DNA of 64,000 nucleotides, taken from assembly GCF_015558785.1 (NCBI RefSeq), contig NZ_JADMOP010000001.1:186001-250000 (forward strand). The letters run 5' to 3'. Below the pieces are notes generated by a model. That model was given only the letters and a program-made list of their open reading frames with translations, had not been told where the DNA came from and searched no databases. This document shows, piece by piece, positions 11,235 through 62,225 of the stretch. The DNA comes from Collinsella aerofaciens. GTDB lineage: Bacteria; Actinomycetota; Coriobacteriia; Coriobacteriales; Coriobacteriaceae. Each line of letters begins with the position of its first letter. The stretch's first letter is position 1. Made by a program: the position numbers and the translations under genes.

Positions 11235-11259
11235 AATCGCAACAACTCGTTGGCTGTAG

Positions 11260-11322
11260 TTGCGGTGGAATAGTTCCTGTTTTTGCTGCTGAAGGCCTTG
11301 AACAGGAACTATTCCACCGCAA
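11260..11322. repeat. Inverted repeat R1 copy c
   Basis: A 63-nt palindrome with a near-perfect 22-bp stem starting TTGCGGTGGAATAGTTCC. It lies between the GntR operator and the GntR gene; copy d lies just after that gene. Confidence 0.85.
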
Positions 11323-11397
11323 CTTATGATGGGGCGGGGGATGCGATAGTATTGCATGGTGAAATTCGACAAACCGTGAGCTTCATCCGAGGGCTTT

Positions 11398-12090: not shown

Positions 12091-12106
12091 TCAATCCCCA
12101 TATAAG

Positions 12107-12169
12107 TTGCGGTGAAATAGGGACTGTTTTGTGACCTAGGTGGCGCAAACAGTCCCTATTTCACCGCAA
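12107..12169. repeat. Inverted repeat R1 copy d
   Basis: A 63-nt palindrome with a perfect 23-bp stem (12107-12129 with 12147-12169), beginning TTGCGGTGAAATAGGGAC. It lies 17 nt after the GntR gene and may act as its 3' hairpin. Confidence 0.85.
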
Positions 12170-12200
12170 CTGCGTTGGGGTGTGACCGGGGCACAAAGAT

Positions 12201-27529: not shown

Positions 27530-27594
27530 AAACCATCACAACATTCGACGTTTTTTGCCAAAAACGGGAAAAGCATCGAATGTTGTGATGGTTT
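27530..27594. repeat. Inverted repeat R2 copy a
   Basis: AAACCATCACAACATTCGA (27530-27548) and TCGAATGTTGTGATGGTTT (27576-27594) enclose CGTTTTTTGCCAAAAACG. It lies between the ABC operon and the nuclease-like gene. Copy b, in the same orientation, lies just after that gene. Confidence 0.9.
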
Positions 27595-28774: not shown

Positions 28775-28833
28775 CCATCACAACATTCGACGTTTTTTGC
28801 CAAAATCGGGAAAAGCATCGAATGTTGTGATGG
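28775..28833. repeat. Inverted repeat R2 copy b
   Basis: CCATCACAACATTCGA (28775-28790) with its complement at 28818-28833. The loop is nearly identical to copy a and in the same orientation. Confidence 0.9.
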
Positions 28834-31436: not shown

Positions 31437-31495
31437 CCATCACAACATTCGATGAAAATCGCGATTTTGCCGAAAAACGTCGAATGTTGTGATGC
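31437..31495. repeat. Inverted repeat R2 copy c
   Basis: A 59-nt element with arms CCATCACAACATTCGA and TCGAATGTTGTGATG(C). Its loop (TGAAAATCGCGATTTTGCCG...) is in reverse orientation relative to copies a and b. Confidence 0.88.
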
Positions 31496-41443: not shown

Positions 41444-41457
41444 TTGGGGCTTCCAAA

Positions 41458-41516
41458 CCATCACAACACTCGATGAAAATCTCGATTTTGGCGAAAAACG
41501 TCGAATGTTGTGATGG
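41458..41516. repeat. Inverted repeat R2 copy d
   Basis: CCATCACAACACTCGA with TCGAATGTTGTGATGG, 59-nt span. The loop is in the orientation of copy c. Confidence 0.88.
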
Positions 41517-41701
41517 TTTTCGTTGTGGGCGAGACGGTTTTCGCTATGGACGGTGCGATTTCGCTGCAGAACCGCCAGCCCGCCGCCTGCCAGCCCACCG
41601 CCCTCGTTACGTTTTCGCTGCATTTGGGTAAAGCGCCTGCTCCAAGCCGGCGTTGCCTTGTATACTAGAGCGGTTTATCTGTTATGCGGAAGGGAGCGCC
41701 T

Positions 41702-42013: not shown

Positions 42014-43527
42014 TGGCGCTAAGCTTCGATTCCCTTACCGCCGCCCAGATTGCCGCGGGCGTTGCCGCCGGCGACTTTACCGCTACCGAGGTGGCCCAGG
42101 CCTCCCTTGCCGCCATCGAGGCGCGCGAGGGTGGGGTCCAGGCATTCCTGCAGGTGGCGCCCGAGCTCGCGCTCGAGGCCGCTGCGCGCGTGGATGCCGA
42201 CCATGCCGCAGGCAAGACATTGCCCCCGCTCGCGGGCGTGCCGCTGGCCATTAAGGACAACATGAACCTCGTGGGCACGCGCACTACCTGCGCTTCTCGC
42301 ATGCTCGAGGATTACCAGAGCATCTACACCGCTACCTGCGTCCAGCGCATGCTCGATGCCGGCTGCCTGCCCATGGGCAAGGCCAACATGGACGAGTTTG
42401 CCTTTGGCAGCTCCACCGAGAGCTCGGCGTTCCACCGTACCAACAACCCCTGGGATACCGAGCGCGTGCCCGGCGGCTCCTCGGGCGGCTCCGCTGCCGC
42501 CGTCGCCGCGGGCGAAGTCGCGCTTTCGTTGGGCTCGGACACCGGCGGCTCCATTCGCCAGCCGGCGTCGCTGTGCGGCGTGGTGGGCTTTAAGCCCACG
42601 TATGGCGCCGTGAGCCGTTACGGCGTGGTTGCCTTTGGCTCGTCGCTCGACCAGGTGGGCCCCTTTGGCCGCACGGTCGAGGATGTCGCGCTGGCCATGA
42701 ACGCGCTTACCGGTGCGGGCCACGATCCGTACGACTGCACCAGCCGGGATTGCGCCGTCGACTTTACCGAGCATCTCAACGACAGCATCGAGGGCAAGCA
42801 CGTGGGCATCATCCCTGCGTTTATGGAGGCCGAGGGCCTGACGCCCGAGGTCAAGGCCGCTGTTCAGCGCGCCGCCCAGGAGCTGCAGAACCAGGGCGCC
42901 GAGCTGGTCGAGGTCGACCTGCCGCACCTGGACGCCGCCATCGCCGCCTACTACGTCATCGGCCCGGCCGAGGCGTTCTCCAACCTGGCACGTTTCGACG
43001 GCATTCGCTACGGCTATCAGGAGGAGGGCTGCACTAACCTGTCCGACCAGAGCTCGCTTTCGCGCGCCCACGGCTTTGGTGCCGAGGCCAAGCGCCGCCA
43101 GATGCTCGGCGCCTACCTGCTGAGCTCGGGCGTGTACGACAAGTACTACTACGCTGCGCAAAAGGCCCGCACGCTCATCACGCAGGACTACGACGCCGCG
43201 TATGCCAAGGTGGACACCATCCTTATGCCCGCCTCGCCGCGTACGGCCTTTAAGTTTGGCGAGATCAGCGACCCCACGCAGATGTACCTCTCCGATCTGT
43301 ACACTATCTCGCTCAACATTTGCGGCAACGGCGGTATCTCGGTGCCGCTGGGCCTGGGCGAGGACACCAAGCTGCCCGTTTCTGCCCAGCTGGTTGGTCC
43401 GGCCTTTAAGGACCGTCAGCTGCTCACGTTTGCCCGCGCCCTGGAGCGCGGCTTTGCCGATGCCGCCACGGGTGCGCCCGCGCTTTCCGTCGCGCCCGAT
43501 TTTGCCGGGAAGGGAGGCGAGCTGTAA
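42013..43527 (+). CDS. gatA: Aspartyl/glutamyl-tRNA amidotransferase subunit A
   Basis: A 504-residue amidase-signature protein. The Ser-cisSer-Lys triad region is visible as PLAIKDNMN (Lys near 79) and PGGSSGGSAAAVAAGEVALSLGSDTGGSIRQPA (Ser residues near 156-180). It releases ammonia from glutamine or asparagine for the GatB kinase/transamidase site. It overlaps gatC and gatB by one base each (TAATG), so the three are made stoichiometrically. Confidence 0.97.
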   Translation: MALSFDSLTAAQIAAGVAAGDFTATEVAQASLAAIEAREGGVQAFLQVAPELALEAAARVDADHAAGKTLPPLAGVPLAIKDNMNLVGTRTTCASRMLEDYQSIYTATCVQRMLDAGCLPMGKANMDEFAFGSSTESSAFHRTNNPWDTERVPGGSSGGSAAAVAAGEVALSLGSDTGGSIRQPASLCGVVGFKPTYGAVSRYGVVAFGSSLDQVGPFGRTVEDVALAMNALTGAGHDPYDCTSRDCAVDFTEHLNDSIEGKHVGIIPAFMEAEGLTPEVKAAVQRAAQELQNQGAELVEVDLPHLDAAIAAYYVIGPAEAFSNLARFDGIRYGYQEEGCTNLSDQSSLSRAHGFGAEAKRRQMLGAYLLSSGVYDKYYYAAQKARTLITQDYDAAYAKVDTILMPASPRTAFKFGEISDPTQMYLSDLYTISLNICGNGGISVPLGLGEDTKLPVSAQLVGPAFKDRQLLTFARALERGFADAATGAPALSVAPDFAGKGGEL

Positions 43528-45203
43528 TGAAGGAGCTTTCCGAGGTCCTGCAGGATTGGGAGGCCGTGATTGGCCTGGAGATCCATACCGAGCTCACCGC
43601 ACTCGATACCAAGATGTTCTGCAACTGCAAGCTCAGCCACGATGACGAGCCCAACGCCAACGTGTGCCCGGTGTGCCTGGGCCTGCCCGGCGCCCTGCCG
43701 GTGCCCAACAAGCGCGCCATCGAGAGCATCGTCAAGGCAGGTCTCGCCACCAATTGCGAGATTCAGCGCCACTCGATGTTCTACCGCAAGCACTACTTCT
43801 ATCCCGATATGGCCAAGAACTTCCAGACCACGCAGGGTCCGGTCGCCTTTGCCATGTACGGTCACCTTGATCTGGACGTGACCGGTCGCGGTGCCGCCGA
43901 GCGCCCCGATTGCGCGTTTGGCGAGGCCGAGGCTCAGAGCCTGGCGAGCGCTTCGGCCAACGCCGAGGGCCTGTCTACGTCCATGACGTCGACCATGCGC
44001 GAGGGCAACCAACGCGCCGGCCACCTGGCCAGCTATGACGCGTCCAACCTGCAGATGCCCGAGCGTCGCGAGGACGGTTCCTACACGGTGCCTATCCGCA
44101 TCTTGCGTATCCATATGGAGGAGGATGCCGCCAAGATGGTTCACGTGGGCGGCGCCGAGGGCCGCATTACCGCCGCGGCCGAGTCGCTCGTCGACTACAA
44201 CCGCTGCGGTACGCCGCTAATTGAGCTCGTCACCGAGCCCGACCTGCGTACGCCCGAGGAGGCTCGCCTGTTTATGGAGAAGCTCCGTCGCATCTTTGTG
44301 ACGCTGGGCATTTCGGACTGCTCCATGGAGAAGGGTTCCATGCGCTGCGACGGCAACGTGTCGCTGCGCCGCCGCGGCGAGACCAAGCTGGGCACCAAGA
44401 CCGAGCTCAAGAACCTCAACTCGTTTAAGAGCCTGCACGACGGCCTTGCCTACGAGATCTGCCGCCAGGCCGAGGTGCTCGAGGAGGGCGGCATCATCTA
44501 TCAGGAGACCCGTCACTGGGAGCCCAGCCGCAAGCGCACCGTGGTCATGCGTGTGAAGGAGACGGCCGACGACTATCGCCTGTTCCCCGATCCCGACCTG
44601 GCGCCCTTCGATCTGGACGACGAGTTCATCGACCGTTGCCGTGGCGAGATCCCCGAGCTGCCCGATGCCAAGCGCGCCCGTTTTGAGGCAGACTTTGGCA
44701 TTAAGGCGGCCGATGCCGAGCAGATTGCCGGCGACCCGGAGTTTGCCGACTTCTTTGAGGCCGCCGCTGCCGGTATGGCCGGCAAGGAGGCCCAGACGGT
44801 CGCAAACTTGCTGGTGAACGAGATGATCGCTTACCTTAAGGGCGCAGGCGTGTCGCTCACCGAGTCCGGCATCGCGCCGGCTCAGGTGGCAGCGCTGGCT
44901 AAGCTGCTGGCGACCGATGCCATCAGCTCCAATCAGGCGCACGAGGTCTTTGAGGCCATGGCCCAGACCGGTGACGATCCCAACAAGATCGTCGACGAGC
45001 GCGGTATGCGTCAGGTGAGCGATGCCGGCGCGCTGCAGCCGATCGTGGACGAGGTGCTGGCAAACTGTGCCGAGCAGGCGCAGCAGTATCGTGACGGCAA
45101 CCAGAAGGTCATCGGCTTTTTGGTGGGCCAGTGCATGAAGGCGAGCCGCGGCAAGGGCAATCCGAAGCTCTTCAACGAGTTGCTGAGAACGTCGCTCTCG
45201 TAG
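43527..45203 (+). CDS. gatB: Aspartyl/glutamyl-tRNA amidotransferase subunit B
   Basis: A 558-residue GatB. The cradle domain starts WEAVIGLEIHTEL and contains CNCKLSHDDEPNANVCPVCLGLPG with zinc-binding cysteines, plus HYFYPDMAKNFQ and a typical RSxR-like RCDGNVSLR region. A helical domain and a C-terminal YqeY-like tail (KVIGFLVGQCMKASRGKGNP) follow. It phosphorylates the misacylated Glu or Asp on tRNA and amidates it. Length is somewhat above the common 475-500 residues. A 143-bp nested inverted repeat follows the stop codon. Confidence 0.97.
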   Translation: MKELSEVLQDWEAVIGLEIHTELTALDTKMFCNCKLSHDDEPNANVCPVCLGLPGALPVPNKRAIESIVKAGLATNCEIQRHSMFYRKHYFYPDMAKNFQTTQGPVAFAMYGHLDLDVTGRGAAERPDCAFGEAEAQSLASASANAEGLSTSMTSTMREGNQRAGHLASYDASNLQMPERREDGSYTVPIRILRIHMEEDAAKMVHVGGAEGRITAAAESLVDYNRCGTPLIELVTEPDLRTPEEARLFMEKLRRIFVTLGISDCSMEKGSMRCDGNVSLRRRGETKLGTKTELKNLNSFKSLHDGLAYEICRQAEVLEEGGIIYQETRHWEPSRKRTVVMRVKETADDYRLFPDPDLAPFDLDDEFIDRCRGEIPELPDAKRARFEADFGIKAADAEQIAGDPEFADFFEAAAAGMAGKEAQTVANLLVNEMIAYLKGAGVSLTESGIAPAQVAALAKLLATDAISSNQAHEVFEAMAQTGDDPNKIVDERGMRQVSDAGALQPIVDEVLANCAEQAQQYRDGNQKVIGFLVGQCMKASRGKGNPKLFNELLRTSLS

Positions 45204-45209
45204 CTGCGA

Positions 45210-45352
45210 GGCCGGGGAAGCCCCGAGTCGCCGGGGTATTTCCTCCAAATTTCAAACAGTCCTATGCAAGACGAAGGCCACATTTAGTGGCCTTCTTTGC
45301 ATGCGGAACTCATTTGGAGCAAACACCCCGGCGACTCGGGGCTTCCCCGGCC
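45210..45352. repeat. 143-bp nested inverted repeat after gatB
   Basis: A perfect 28-bp outer arm at 45210-45237 (contains GGGGAAGCCCCGAGTCGCC) matches 45325-45352. Inside it, CTCCAAAT (45243-45250) pairs with ATTTGGAG (45312-45319), and at the tip GAAGGCCAC pairs with GTGGCCTTC. No protein is encoded. It could end the gatCAB transcript or be a MITE-like insertion. Confidence 0.85.
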
Positions 45353-45455
45353 AGACGACTCGGCCGTTCGGGTCAGGTGGGCTGAATGGAATAGAGTGAA
45401 TGAGGGCGCCGTTGGCGCCCTCATTCTTTATGGATGTTGAAAACGAAGGTGAATA

Positions 45456-45613
45456 CTTTTCCGCGAAGTGAACGACCTATTTTGGGCCCCTGAAACATCA
45501 ACACTTTTCTGGCTCTGTTTCCTGCGGTTTTGTCGAGTTTTTCCTACGGTTTTGCTGGTGAAAAATGCAGATGTTTCGGGGGTCCGATTTCACTCGTTCA
45601 CTTCGCGGAAAAG
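45456..45613. repeat. 158-bp inverted repeat before the DUF6110-like gene
   Basis: CTTTTCCGCGAAGTGAACGA (45456-45475) and its exact complement (45594-45613) form the outer stem. GGGCCCCTGAAACATC pairs with GATGTTTCGGGGGTCC with two changes. The centre holds a direct repeat of TTCCTnCGGTTTTG. No gene is evident in the 650-nt gap 45204-45854 apart from these two structures. Confidence 0.8.
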
Positions 45614-45854
45614 AATTAGACCTCGATTTGTTGGGTCGGGGGAGAGCCTTTCTTGGATGCCGGAGATGTACGTTGCGGCAGGCGGATCGCCAGAAGTCGG
45701 CTGTTCCGCGCCTCAAGATTTCCAAAAAGTTAACCTTTGTTGAACTTAATAGTTAGATAAACTAAACTATTTTCCAAAAGTGTGCTCGAGCAAACTTGTT
45801 TACTCGGGTGCTAAGGCACCGTGCCGCAGTTGTTGCGGAAAAGGGAGAGACATC

Positions 45855-46118: not shown

Positions 46119-48194
46119 ATGAGATTCTCGATTATTAGCGAGATCCCCGGCAGGACCCGTCTTCAATTGGCGGGTCCTGTGCCAGAGAGCGATCTCGATG
46201 CACTTCTTAAGCTTGGCGGCGAAATCGACGGCGTGCGCAAAGTGCGCGTATATGGCCGTATTGGCCAGATGGCGCTCGAATATGACGAGCAGTGTCGTGC
46301 GAGCGTGCTCGACGCCTTGGGCGCACTCGATGCCCAGGCCATTGCCGACGCAAAGACGGGTTACGTGATGCAGCTTGAGCCACGCAAGCACAAGCTCGTC
46401 ATGGATCTTGCCACACTTATCGGCGCCCACTACGCGCGCCGTTGGTTCTTGCCGACGCCTCTGCGTGCGGTGTTTGTCGTGGCCGGTTACATGGCATTTT
46501 TGCGCGCTGCTCTTCATGAGCTGGCGCAGCCACGCCTGACCGTTCCTGTGCTCGACGCTTCGGCCATCGGCATTTCGTTCGTCAAACGTGATGTCGACAC
46601 CGCGGGCCAGACAATGTTTCTGCTCAACGTGGGCGAGCTGCTCGAGGACTACACCCGCGCCATGAGCGAAAACGAGCTCATCAACTCGCTGCTCGATGTG
46701 CCCGACAAGGCGCAAAAGGTCGTTGGCGACACCGAGGTAAGCGTTGCCGCGACCGAGCTTGAGCCCGGCGATCTGGTCGCCGTGCGCACTGGCATGTCCA
46801 TTTGCATCGACGGTGTTGTCGAGCAGGGGAGCGCTATGGTCAACCAGGCGACCCTGACCGGCGAGCCGCTTGCCGTCGAGCGCAGCGCAGGCGACGACGT
46901 GTTCGCCGGAACTGTCGTGGAAGACGGCAGCATCTTGGTGCGCGTGCGCGCCAATACGGCGCAAACCAAACTGCGCTCAATCGTCTCGCTCGTGCAGACG
47001 GCTGACTCGCTCAAGTCCGAGGGCCAGTCGCATATGGAGGACCTTGCCAACAAGATCGTCCCGTGGAACTTCCTGCTTGCGGGCCTTGTCGCGCTCACCA
47101 CACGTAGCCTCATCAAGACCTCGGCGGCGCTGATGGTCGACTATTCGTGTGCGCTCAAGCTCACGGGTTCCGTTGCCGTCATGACTGCCATGAGCGACGC
47201 CGCCAAGATGGGCGTGATGGTCAAGGGCGCGAAGTACTTTGAGTCGTTTGCCAAGGCCGACACCATTGTGTTTGATAAGACCGGCACGCTCACCGAGGCG
47301 CAGCCGCGTCTTGCCTGCGTACTCACCACCGATGGCTGGAGTGAGGACGAGATCCTGCGCCTTTCCGCTTGCTTGGAGGAGCATTTCCCGCATCCGGTGG
47401 CGCGTGCCGTGGTCAACGCCGCCCGCGAGCGCGGGCTCGAGCACCGCGAGCGTCACGCTGCGGTCGAGTATATTGTGGCGCATGGTATCGCTTCGTCCAT
47501 CGAAGGGCGTCGCGCGATTATCGGCTCGGCACACTTTGTGTTTGAGGATGAGGGCGCGCAGCTCGAGTCCGACATTAAGGAGCAAATCGAGTCCCAGATG
47601 CAGGGCCTGTCGCCGCTGTATTTGGCGGTCGATGGCACCGTTGTGGGCGTGCTCGGTATCGAGGACCCGCTCAAGGCCGGGGTCCGCGAGGCCATCGCCG
47701 ACTTGCACGCGTTGGGCGTTAAGCACGTGGTCATGCTCACGGGCGACTCGGAGCGCACAGCCGAGCGCATTGCTCGCGAGGCAGGTGTCGACGAGTTTAA
47801 GGCCGAGCTGCTGCCCGAGGACAAGTACGCGTATGTGGAGCGCATTAAGGGCGAGGGGCGCCACGTTGCCATGGTGGGCGACGGCGTCAACGATTCGCCG
47901 GCGCTCGGTTTGGCCGACGTGGGGCTGGCCATGGGCGGCGGAAGCGACATCGCCAAGGAGGTCGCCGATATCATCCTGACCGATACGGATCTGGCCGCGA
48001 TCGTGCGCCTGCGCCGCATGAGTCAGGGGCTTATCGACCGTCTGACGAGTTCGTATTCCAAGGTGATGCTCACCAACTCGGCGCTGTTGGCATTGGGCAT
48101 TACCGGCATGATCACTCCGCAGACGTCGTCACTGCTGCACAACGGCTCGACGATCGCCTACAGCCTGGGCAACGCGAAGGCTTACCTGCGCTAG
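46119..48194 (+). CDS. P1B-type heavy-metal-translocating ATPase (DYSCALKL type)
   Basis: A 691-residue P-type ATPase. The N-terminal about 75 residues are HMA-like (SIISEIPGRTRLQLAG) but lack the CxxC pair. The actuator has TLTGEPLAVE, the membrane motif is DYSCALKL (near 341) in place of CPC, and the phosphorylation site is DKTGTLTE (near 386). HP is in EEHFPHPVARAV, the hinge in MVGDGVNDSPALG. Lack of CPC and CxxC argues against classical Cu(I) export; manganese, iron or zinc are possible by analogy with CtpC-like pumps. It follows the DUF6110-like gene closely and is followed by a terminator. Confidence 0.9.
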   Translation: MRFSIISEIPGRTRLQLAGPVPESDLDALLKLGGEIDGVRKVRVYGRIGQMALEYDEQCRASVLDALGALDAQAIADAKTGYVMQLEPRKHKLVMDLATLIGAHYARRWFLPTPLRAVFVVAGYMAFLRAALHELAQPRLTVPVLDASAIGISFVKRDVDTAGQTMFLLNVGELLEDYTRAMSENELINSLLDVPDKAQKVVGDTEVSVAATELEPGDLVAVRTGMSICIDGVVEQGSAMVNQATLTGEPLAVERSAGDDVFAGTVVEDGSILVRVRANTAQTKLRSIVSLVQTADSLKSEGQSHMEDLANKIVPWNFLLAGLVALTTRSLIKTSAALMVDYSCALKLTGSVAVMTAMSDAAKMGVMVKGAKYFESFAKADTIVFDKTGTLTEAQPRLACVLTTDGWSEDEILRLSACLEEHFPHPVARAVVNAARERGLEHRERHAAVEYIVAHGIASSIEGRRAIIGSAHFVFEDEGAQLESDIKEQIESQMQGLSPLYLAVDGTVVGVLGIEDPLKAGVREAIADLHALGVKHVVMLTGDSERTAERIAREAGVDEFKAELLPEDKYAYVERIKGEGRHVAMVGDGVNDSPALGLADVGLAMGGGSDIAKEVADIILTDTDLAAIVRLRRMSQGLIDRLTSSYSKVMLTNSALLALGITGMITPQTSSLLHNGSTIAYSLGNAKAYLR

Positions 48195-49932: not shown

Positions 49933-50296
49933 GGGGGCGACTGGTTTCGACACGATAGCTCTGAGAGAGGAAGCAAGCCGAGGTCTCCTCGCCTCGTTAA
50001 ACAGGGGTACCGTCAAATTGAATTGACAACAACTCTTCTTTTGAGCCTATGGCTCTCGCTGCTTAGTTTATAGCGGCGCGTCAACCCGGTGATTTCCCCG
50101 ACACCGGCGCGACGTCATTTTAGGGGAATGCTCCTGCGCACGTAATCGGTATGGTGCAGGCTAAGACCGAACCGGTTAGGACGCCGCGAGCGTGTCGCTG
50201 CGCGCAAAGCGTCCGAGACTAAACCAGCGACTGAGCTTGGAGATGCCAATCAGGGAGCTTTCGTGGACCGGAGTTCGATTCTCCGCGCCTCCACCA
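49933..50296 (+). ncRNA. ssrA: Transfer-messenger RNA (tmRNA)
   Basis: The 5' end GGGGGCGACTGGTTTCGAC and the 3' end (T arm GGAGTTCGATTCTCC, acceptor CGCCTCC, then A and CCA at 50294-50296) form the tRNA-like domain; 49933-49939 pairs with 50286-50292. The tag frame runs from 50025 to TAG at 50064: DNNSSFEPMALAA, ending in the protease-recognised LAA. The resume codon could be GAC 50025 or the preceding ATT. The pseudoknot region follows. It rescues stalled ribosomes with SmpB. A terminator follows at 50305-50337. Confidence 0.95.
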
Positions 50297-50353: not shown

Positions 50354-50486
50354 CGCGGAGAATCGAACTCTATGCAGGGCGCGAGCGTTAAGCAAACGCG
50401 AAGCGTTTGTAGCGAGCGGGCGAGGACGCCGGCAGGCGGCCGAAGCCGGTGCGTATTTGCGAAGCAAATACGCGGATTCTCCGCGC
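50354..50486. repeat. Partial inverted and direct copies of the tmRNA 3' end
   Basis: CGCGGAGAATCGAACTC (50354-50370) is the exact inverse complement of tmRNA 50271-50287. GATTCTCCGCGC (50475-50486) is a direct copy of tmRNA 50277-50288. Between them are two tight hairpins (CAAACGC/GCGTTTG at 50393-50409; CGTATTTG/CAAATACG at 50452-50472). tmRNA 3' ends are classic integrase targets, so this may be the scar of an excised element; no integrase is present. Confidence 0.6.
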
Positions 50487-60461: not shown

Positions 60462-60628
60462 GGGCCAACCTCCTAGCAACAAAAAAGCGACTCCCCCCAA
60501 AAGAAGAGCCGCAACCAGCATATACCAGAAAAGAACCGTTCCAATGCCAAACCGCCGCACCAGCCAAGTGGTGCAGGAGCGAAGCAACTGCAACCGGGAT
60601 AGACCCCAACTGAGGTCCCGTTGTGCGG

Positions 60629-60761
60629 GAGCCCCGGGGAGGGCAAATATATAAGGTCGATCGCGAGTTCCGCACGAGCCGGAGAGCACTTAATGTGCTC
60701 TCCGTGCGAGTCAGGACTGTCCGAGCAGGCGACCTTATATATTTGCCCTCCCCGGGGCTCC
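60629..60761. repeat. 133-bp long inverted repeat (32-bp perfect arms)
   Basis: The arm at 60629-60660 (begins GGAGCCCCGGGGAGGG, ends ATATAAGGTCG) is exactly complementary to 60730-60761. A second hairpin, GGAGAGCAC/GTGCTCTCC (about 60681-60703), lies inside. It fills the gap between two minus-strand genes and probably ends the DUF711 transcript, but the size and perfection are unusual for a terminator. Confidence 0.88.
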
Positions 60762-60778: not shown

Positions 60779-62143
60779 CTAGTTCTTGAGCGAGTTCAGC
60801 GGAGCCGGGAAGCGTCCACCGCGGTGGGCAAGCACGGTGCCGGCGTTGGGGTTTACCGGCATGATGGGCGCACGGCCAAACAGGCCGCCGTACTCGACGC
60901 AGTCGCCCACGCCCTTGCCGATGGCGGGAATCACGCGCACGGCCGTGGTCTTGTTGTTGATGACGCCGATGGCCATCTCGTCGGCGATGATGCCGGCGAT
61001 GGTCTCGACCGGGGTGTCGCCGGGGATGGCGATCATGTCCAGGCCAACGGAGCACACACAGGTCATGGCCTCGAGCTTCTCGAGCGAAAGCGCGCCGGCT
61101 TCGACGGCGGCGATCATGCCGGCGTCCTCGGACACGGGGATAAAGGCGCCGGAGAGACCGCCCACGCTGGAGCTGGCCATGACGCCGCCCTTCTTGACGG
61201 CATCGTTGAGCATGGCGAGCGCACAGGTCGTGCCCGGGCCACCGCAGGTGCCCACGCCGATGATCTCGAGGATACGGGCAACGGAGTCGCCGATGGCAGG
61301 CGTGGGAGCCAGCGACAGGTCGACAATGCCCTTCTCGACACCCAGACGATGGGCGGCCTCGCGGCTCATGAGCTCGCCGGCGCGGGTGATCTTAAAGGCG
61401 GTCTGCTTAATCTTTTCGGCGACTTCCATCATCGATGCGGAATCGGGCAGCGTCTCCAGGGCTGCGGCCATAACGCCGGGGCCCGAGACGCCTACGTTGA
61501 TGACGGCGTCGGCCTCGCCACCGCCGTGGACGGCGCCCGCCATAAACGGGGAGTCCTCGACCATGTTGGCAAAGCAGACAAACTTGGAGGCGCCAACGGA
61601 ATCCTGGTCGGCCGTGAGCTTGGCGGCGTCGATGATGGTCTGGGCGGCCATGAGCACAGCGTCCATGTTGATGCCGGCGCGCAGGCTGGCGACGTTGACG
61701 CTGGAGCAGACGCGGCTCGTGGTGGCGAGCGCCTGGGGGATGGACTGGATGACGCGGCGGTCGGCGTCGCCGATGCCCTTCTGGACGAGTGCGGAGAAGC
61801 CGCCCAGGTAGTCGATGCCGAGCGTCTCGGCCGCGCGGTCGAGGGCATGCGCGATGGGGGTGAGGTCCTCATCCTTGCAGCATGCGGCGATCTGCGCCAC
61901 CGGGGTGACGGAAACGCGCTTGTTGACGATGGGGATACCGTACTCGCGCTCGAGGTTCTCGGCGGTCTCGACCAGATGCTCAGCCGTGTGCGTCACGTGG
62001 TCGTAGATCTTCGTGCACATGCGGTCGAGGTTCTCGTCACCGCAACCCATGAGCGAAACACCCATGGTGATGGTCCTGATGTCGAGGTTCTGTTCCTCAA
62101 CCATGCCGCGGGTTTCCGCGATTTCTGCGGGCGTGATCGCCAT
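60779..62143 (-). CDS. DUF711/UPF0210 family protein (PFL family)
   Basis: A 454-residue protein of the DUF711 (UPF0210) family, which has a pyruvate-formate-lyase-like fold: [31 protein letters not shown] start, [81 protein letters not shown]. No established activity. In other genomes it often follows a small ACT-domain (UPF0237) gene; none is next to it here. AGGAG precedes ATG 62143. Confidence 0.9.
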
Positions 62144-62190
62144 CCTTGCGCTCCTATCTGCCAAAACGAGCATAATCTTATCTATTCTAA

Positions 62191-62225
62191 CGTGCCGCAC
62201 GTGCCAAGTGGCGCATGCGGCACGT
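62191..62225 (-). terminator. Hairpin between DUF711 and methionine synthase genes
   Basis: CGTGCCGCA (62191-62199) pairs with TGCGGCACG (62217-62225), with an inner GCC/GGC. The T tract on the minus strand is weak. Confidence 0.55.

Follow-up and report, generated by a model that had tools for sequence, protein, structure and literature searches.

A putative Coriobacteriia family of dispersed foldback elements with a constant core and locus-private arms

Repeats such as ERIC, YPAL, EFAR, and similar families are intergenic palindromes of 100-200 bp in 3' regions, and their arms are common to the copies. The attC sites of integrons, which are recombined by an integrase, also lie behind stop codons; in these sites, the structure is kept while the sequence of the stem varies, and the unpaired bases are asymmetric. 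MITEs have terminal inverted repeats that are common to the copies and a target-site duplication, to be seen at a clean empty site, and intrinsic terminators consist of a G+C hairpin and a subsequent T-run. The REP/BIME repeats with RAYT (Y1) transposases are dispersed intergenic palindromes at gene ends, which occur many times per genome and may be recognised as DNA hairpins. REPs are described as a GT(A/G)G head with a conserved short palindrome (PMC2817692).

Here we describe two palindromes, E1 and E2, which lie one behind the other in Collinsella aerofaciens, and compare them with these systems. E1 resembles REP/BIME in its dispersal among gene ends, its many copies per genome, and its possible recognition as a DNA hairpin, but it differs from the REPs in its size of ~140-200 bp, its private arms, and the absence of a shared GT(A/G)G head or stem: across 36 loci, a position profile of E1 reveals no conserved outer sequence. 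E1 is not a MITE in the classic sense, as its terminal arms differ from copy to copy (mean identity across different loci 0.496, sd 0.098); the earlier note had proposed that the arms of both palindromes be searched for MITE families, and only E2, the arms of which can be aligned, has the shared terminal repeats of such a family. The comparison with attC is a reversed one, because attC sites have conserved ends and a variable middle, whereas E1 has a conserved middle and variable ends. The R boxes at the outer ends of attC have no counterpart in E1: the same profile contains no conserved sequence in the flanks outside the arms, and its information beyond position -36 is at most 0.25 bit per position. 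E2 resembles the ERIC, YPAL, and EFAR repeats, from which E1 differs in its unshared arms. In other words, E1 shares the habit of the REP/ERIC-like repeats, but fails to show their defining shared arms, and is like an attC turned inside out.

The window, by which we mean the whole stretch of 64,000 nucleotides analysed here, contains two copies of E1 and one of E2 (Table 1). The earlier note had described two unrelated palindromes, far larger than terminators, and its account of their coordinates, sizes, arms, and spacing is confirmed here, as is their assignment to separate families. The 28-bp perfect outer arms of the first E1 copy lie within a 41-bp arm that is 95% complementary, and they enclose a nested inner hairpin. 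Delimited by its 20-bp perfect arms, E2 covers 45456-45613 (158 bp) and has a duplicated centre, TTTCCTGCGGTTTTG; 103 nt separate the end of E1 (45352) from its start (45456). When the two were folded as DNA, none of 200 shuffles of either was as good as the real sequence (z = -12.6 for E1 and -7.0 for E2). Fourteen perfect inverted repeats (arm >=14, loop <=150) were found in the window, against one in total in 20 first-order Markov versions of it, which indicates that long palindromes are frequent in this genome. The shuffles and the Markov versions together rule out a chance origin of E1 and E2. The second E1 copy starts 17 nt past the stop codon of a minus-strand gene at 60779-62200; this copy and the terminator-like hairpin between E1 and E2 are additions to the earlier note.

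Table 1. Positions in the window of the two palindromes, their neighbours, and the second E1 copy.
Feature	Position	Strand	Basis or remark
gatB, 5' neighbour of E1	43527..45203	+	NF004012, 581 bits (cut-off 338)
E1 copy no. 1, entire palindrome, 143 bp	45210..45352	+	covariance-model match G000:C11:231244-231321
E1 left arm	45210..45250	+	outer 28 nt fully paired; begins 6 nt past the gatB stop codon
E1 conserved core, ACAGTCC...GGAACT	45256..45310	+	includes the apical hairpin
E1 right arm	45312..45352	+	
Terminator-like hairpin between E1 and E2	45398..45426	+	13-bp stem, 3-nt loop, then TCTTT
E2 palindrome	45445..45624	.	includes weakly paired tips GAAGGTGAATAC / GAATTAGACCTC
Heavy-metal P-type ATPase, 3' neighbour	46119..48194	+	TIGR01525, 466 bits (cut-off 346)
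E1 copy no. 2 (core 60666-60719)	60628..60761	-	32-bp perfect arms

We give an even chance to the reading that E1 belongs to a family of foldback (hairpin) elements that are dispersed over Coriobacteriia genomes at gene boundaries, most often in the 3' untranslated region just past a stop codon. On this reading, a constant core is enclosed by arms that each locus has for itself, and the arms stay paired through the copying of one from the other. The left arm of E1 is followed by a short internal loop and then by ACAGTCC; next come the apical hairpin, CGGAACT, and the matching right arm, with arms of ~25-45 bp. The left arm is G-rich on the outside and A+T-rich towards the core, and the right arm is C-rich. 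The core (ACAGTCC-hairpin-CGGAACT) is asymmetric and nearly invariant. Its apical hairpin exists in several interchangeable paired versions, and 8 of the 16 predicted pairs show double changes; such a core would be preserved either by selection or by exchange between loci. Among 119 copies, grouped into 36 locus clusters, no near-identical arms occur at different loci. With no arm set present at two loci, transposition that carries the arms from one locus to another was discarded. This set and some of those used below were limited to copies whose arms aligned with a score of 12 to 14 or more, a filter biased towards paired arms; in a recount without any arm filter, 331 of the 338 copies have paired arms.

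With the centre of E1 as the query, BLAST located six more places in the same genome, which share the core but have arms of their own, self-complementary at each place. A covariance model of the core, built from 21 sequences, found 27 confident copies in this genome (G000) at E <= 1.7e-9. In the genus, 38 of 42 genomes contain at least one copy at E <= 0.01, and the copies per genome vary from 0 to 36. In the class Coriobacteriia, the search at E <= 1e-5 was positive for 86 of the 246 genomes, spread over 28 of the 110 genera; the copy numbers per genome from this search are lower bounds. Among the 116 matches of the core pattern in named records, the first 80 are all from Coriobacteriia by title; the matches are mostly from C. 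aerofaciens and other Collinsella, and the rest include Adlercreutzia, Slackia, Parvibacter, Gordonibacter, and relatives. In the Eggerthellaceae, the core is unchanged and the arms are private again. The core pattern had no match in viral contigs, and a phage origin was discarded on this ground. Neither E1 nor E2 matched any Rfam family at the gathering score, so a known RNA family was discarded as well; the matches under permissive settings were to microRNA models (31.2 and 30.3 bits, against gathering scores of 70 and 64), and these scores, below half of the gathering scores, are those of generic long hairpins. No description of the family was found in the open-access journal literature that we searched. 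E1 adds to the common gut bacteria a class-wide repeat family for which no Rfam family was found. It should be noted that both palindromes are multicopy, contrary to the single-copy, simple-terminator status that the earlier note had named as the outcome that would count against it.

Many copies of E1 are found at the ends of genes. In the 19 locus clusters with a co-directional upstream gene, predicted by a codon-usage script and not taken from annotation, the distance from the stop codon to the left arm is 45 nt at most, and in 16 of these it does not exceed 19 nt; two of the distances are slightly negative, because the arm alignment extended into the gene. By a hand tally of a larger set, 36 of 114 arm types have the end of a long reading frame at 4-20 nt ahead of their left arm, and the corresponding number at the right end is 9 of 111. 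About half of the copies have no recognisable stop codon just before them. The neighbouring genes include gyrA, valS, an IMP dehydrogenase gene, and nrdD, and some copies are antisense; examples are a copy ahead of a tRNA promoter region and the copy in the guaB-leuS interval. From this placement, E1 might perhaps act as a gene-end hairpin, in 3'-end protection, in insulation, or in the absorption of supercoils as in REP/BIME; alternatively, it may be a REP-like selfish repeat.

Among 309 pairs of copies at orthologous sites, 142 have left arms with an identity of less than 70% (mean 0.635), with a flank identity of 0.876 and 0.821 and an internal arm complementarity of 0.952. In the 69 pairs that could be aligned, 177 positions had changed in both arms with the pairing kept, 80 changes affected a single arm, and 72 coincidences were expected. 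At four sites in seven genomes, the arms, and often the core type too, had been exchanged exactly inside the palindrome, between flanks that are alike. The site 3' of gatB is filled in all 21 close genomes in which it was read, with four arm types among them (in G010, the contig stops within this E1), and the copy between guaB and leuS is also present in a second genus (L222, assigned by eye from its flanks). No clean empty site was found. The earlier note had argued that perfect arms imply either recent origin or active correction. For E1, the filled site in the 21 close genomes and the guaB-leuS copy in a second genus lend no support to the former; the latter is supported by orthologous arms that diverge widely yet stay complementary, and by mismatches that are symmetric between the strands, as described below.

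Irregular copies were seen 3' of gatB. In two genomes (L080 in G002 and L091 in G030), a right half-copy that starts exactly at GGAACT lies behind an intact E1 of another arm type. In a third (L129 in G023), the right arm is split by ~2.6 kb of foreign DNA, which resembles, by eye, an insertion sequence accompanied by the gene of an ATP-binding helper.

One alternative, which we hold to be rather unlikely, would class E1 with the non-autonomous mobile elements, as a REP-, MITE- or attC-like unit that is recognised as a DNA hairpin and receives new or replacement arms whenever it inserts. Such an element would fit the recurrence of the same core types at many loci, the replacement of whole units between intact flanks, the precise cut of the two half-copies at GGAACT, and the wide range of copy numbers, but it is at odds with arm sets that never occur at two loci, with the failure to find a clean empty site, and with a guaB-leuS site that is common to two genera. 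The core pattern is, moreover, missing from viral contigs, and no transposase candidate emerged. The Y1 transposases (Y1_Tnp, PF01797) are present in 36 of the 42 genus genomes, but are missing from G016 and G014, which carry 23 and 12 copies of E1, respectively; they were discarded as a requirement for E1.

The mismatches in the arms offer a way to distinguish DNA from RNA. In an RNA stem under selection, G-U pairs should be tolerated and A-C pairs should not. In 110 arm types of E1, we counted 47 GT to 44 AC mismatches. Another count, without the inner loop, gave 25 GT to 34 AC, and 18 GT to 20 AC when reduced to one per arm type (85 arm types). The intrinsic terminators at the same loci, detected with strand-neutral scoring, gave 48 GT to 9 AC (67 terminators), a significant difference from E1 (Fisher's test, p = 2e-4 for the 18:20 count and 5e-5 for the 47:44 count). 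The counts for E1 depend on the region that is scored: the sum of three groups was 45 GT to 57 AC, another choice of region gave 33 GT to 36 AC, and a count that took in the inner loop region came to 43 GT to 88 AC, which points to some strand asymmetry near the core. The near equality of GT and AC in the arms, set against the terminators, suggests that the complementarity of E1 is probably maintained in the DNA, most likely via arm-to-arm copying by replication template switching, rather than through selection for a stem in one strand of RNA.

The same counts bear on the possibility that E1 is a 3' UTR RNA element or a small RNA, the arms of which are selected to form a long stem in the RNA, with an internal loop that binds a protein in its midst. 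We judge this unlikely. The invariant internal-loop sequences next to stems that covary, the sense position right behind stop codons, and the single polarity of the arm composition are all features expected of such an RNA, but G-U is not favoured over A-C even in the 56 copies that follow a gene in the sense direction (24 GT to 37 AC), the apical/core stem has 4 GT to 4 AC, many copies are antisense or upstream of promoters, and Rfam has no match. It is possible that a strict requirement for Watson-Crick pairs in the RNA would fit the balance of GT and AC too.

Under the copying of one arm from the other, which is the reading that we prefer, the following steps can be proposed: (i) single-stranded DNA would fold at the E1 core during replication; (ii) the nascent strand would copy one arm from the other, by template switching within the palindrome, and a strong apical hairpin such as that of the core would aid its fold-back; and (iii) a change in one arm would soon be written into its partner, so that the arms would stay complementary. 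Monttinen and Loytynoja reported that template switching in replication creates and repairs perfect stems and yields multi-base compensatory changes (PMC8794818). The hairpins that they treated are like E1 in their perfect stems and in multi-base compensatory changes at the DNA level, but their setting is that of RNA genes, whereas E1 is a dispersed repeat with a constant core and locus-private arms. E1 can serve as a natural test of a debated point, namely, whether selection is necessary for perfect stems in genomes or replication can maintain them by copying arm from arm: dozens of close genomes repeat the same arrangement, each at ~30 sites, and the adjacent terminators are a built-in control. 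E1 is also a warning that covariation by itself, from which a functional RNA is usually deduced, can come about with no selection on an RNA strand.

A host that tolerates long hairpins could be part of this picture. The nuclease SbcD (TIGR00619) was found in none of the 42 genus genomes (controls positive in 13 of 14) and above the cut-off in 44 of the 246 class genomes, so the genus may lack an important hairpin nuclease, which would make long hairpins tolerable. A cross-reading of the two class searches, however, places SbcD in 10 of the 86 E1-bearing genomes, and its absence is thus permissive at best.

Arm copying leaves two things unexplained, namely, the source of new arm sequence and the joint change of the arms and the core type. 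The joint change looks like the replacement of whole elements, unlike point-by-point correction. Both things would be accounted for by the exchange of whole units between strains or by a hairpin-specific enzyme. The G-rich left arms and C-rich right arms are also an asymmetry beyond pure copying. More speculatively, and with a probability that we put low, the constant core would direct the repeated rewriting of its own arms, and each site would gain a new private palindrome; a host enzyme would recognise the core, and the arms would be products and not inherited parts. If true, this would make E1 a DNA-hairpin element of a kind without earlier description.

That E1 is merely a very long intrinsic terminator is very improbable. 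Its strong hairpin and its place behind stop codons fit such a terminator, but the copies that were read lack a T-run past the right arm, separate terminators follow E1 at some loci (e.g., 45398-45426), half of the copies lie away from 3' ends, and the mismatch profile is unlike that of terminators. A strict terminator scan after the sense copies was positive at 5 of 19 loci, one of them weak, but it missed the hairpin at 45398-45426 behind gatB and was therefore too strict to use.

We take E2 for an ordinary long dispersed palindrome, unrelated to E1, from a weaker family with arms that can be aligned. It has one other place in this genome (E < 1e-20) and is present in 23 of 43 genus genomes, where the copies lie between ordinary genes and align over their full length at ~70-80%. 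Alleles that lack it are imprecise deletions or rearrangements, in which no target duplication was seen. The arm mismatches of E2 amount to 127 AC and 84 GT, an excess of AC, in copies that are not independent of one another. The tips of E2 are of two kinds, GGTCTAATAC and GGTGAATAC/GGTGAATGG, and the E2 of the window (45445-45624), with one tip of each kind, looks like a hybrid.

Other palindromes were seen in the window. One further family, at 507-569, 11258-11324, and 12105-12171, has an outer part, AGTTGCGGTG(A/G)AATA, that is common to its copies, and an inner stem that differs from copy to copy yet stays complementary; in other words, the ends stay the same and the middle changes. Within 14 kb, four near-identical copies of another palindrome, CCATCACAACATTCGA...TCGAATGTTGTGATGG, were seen (27530-27594, 28775-28833, 31438-31494, and 41455-41519). 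Finally, the last part of the tmRNA (49933-50296), GAGTTCGATTCTCCGCG at 50271-50287, has a 17-bp perfect inverted copy at 50354-50370, which lies 66 nt downstream, just behind the tmRNA.
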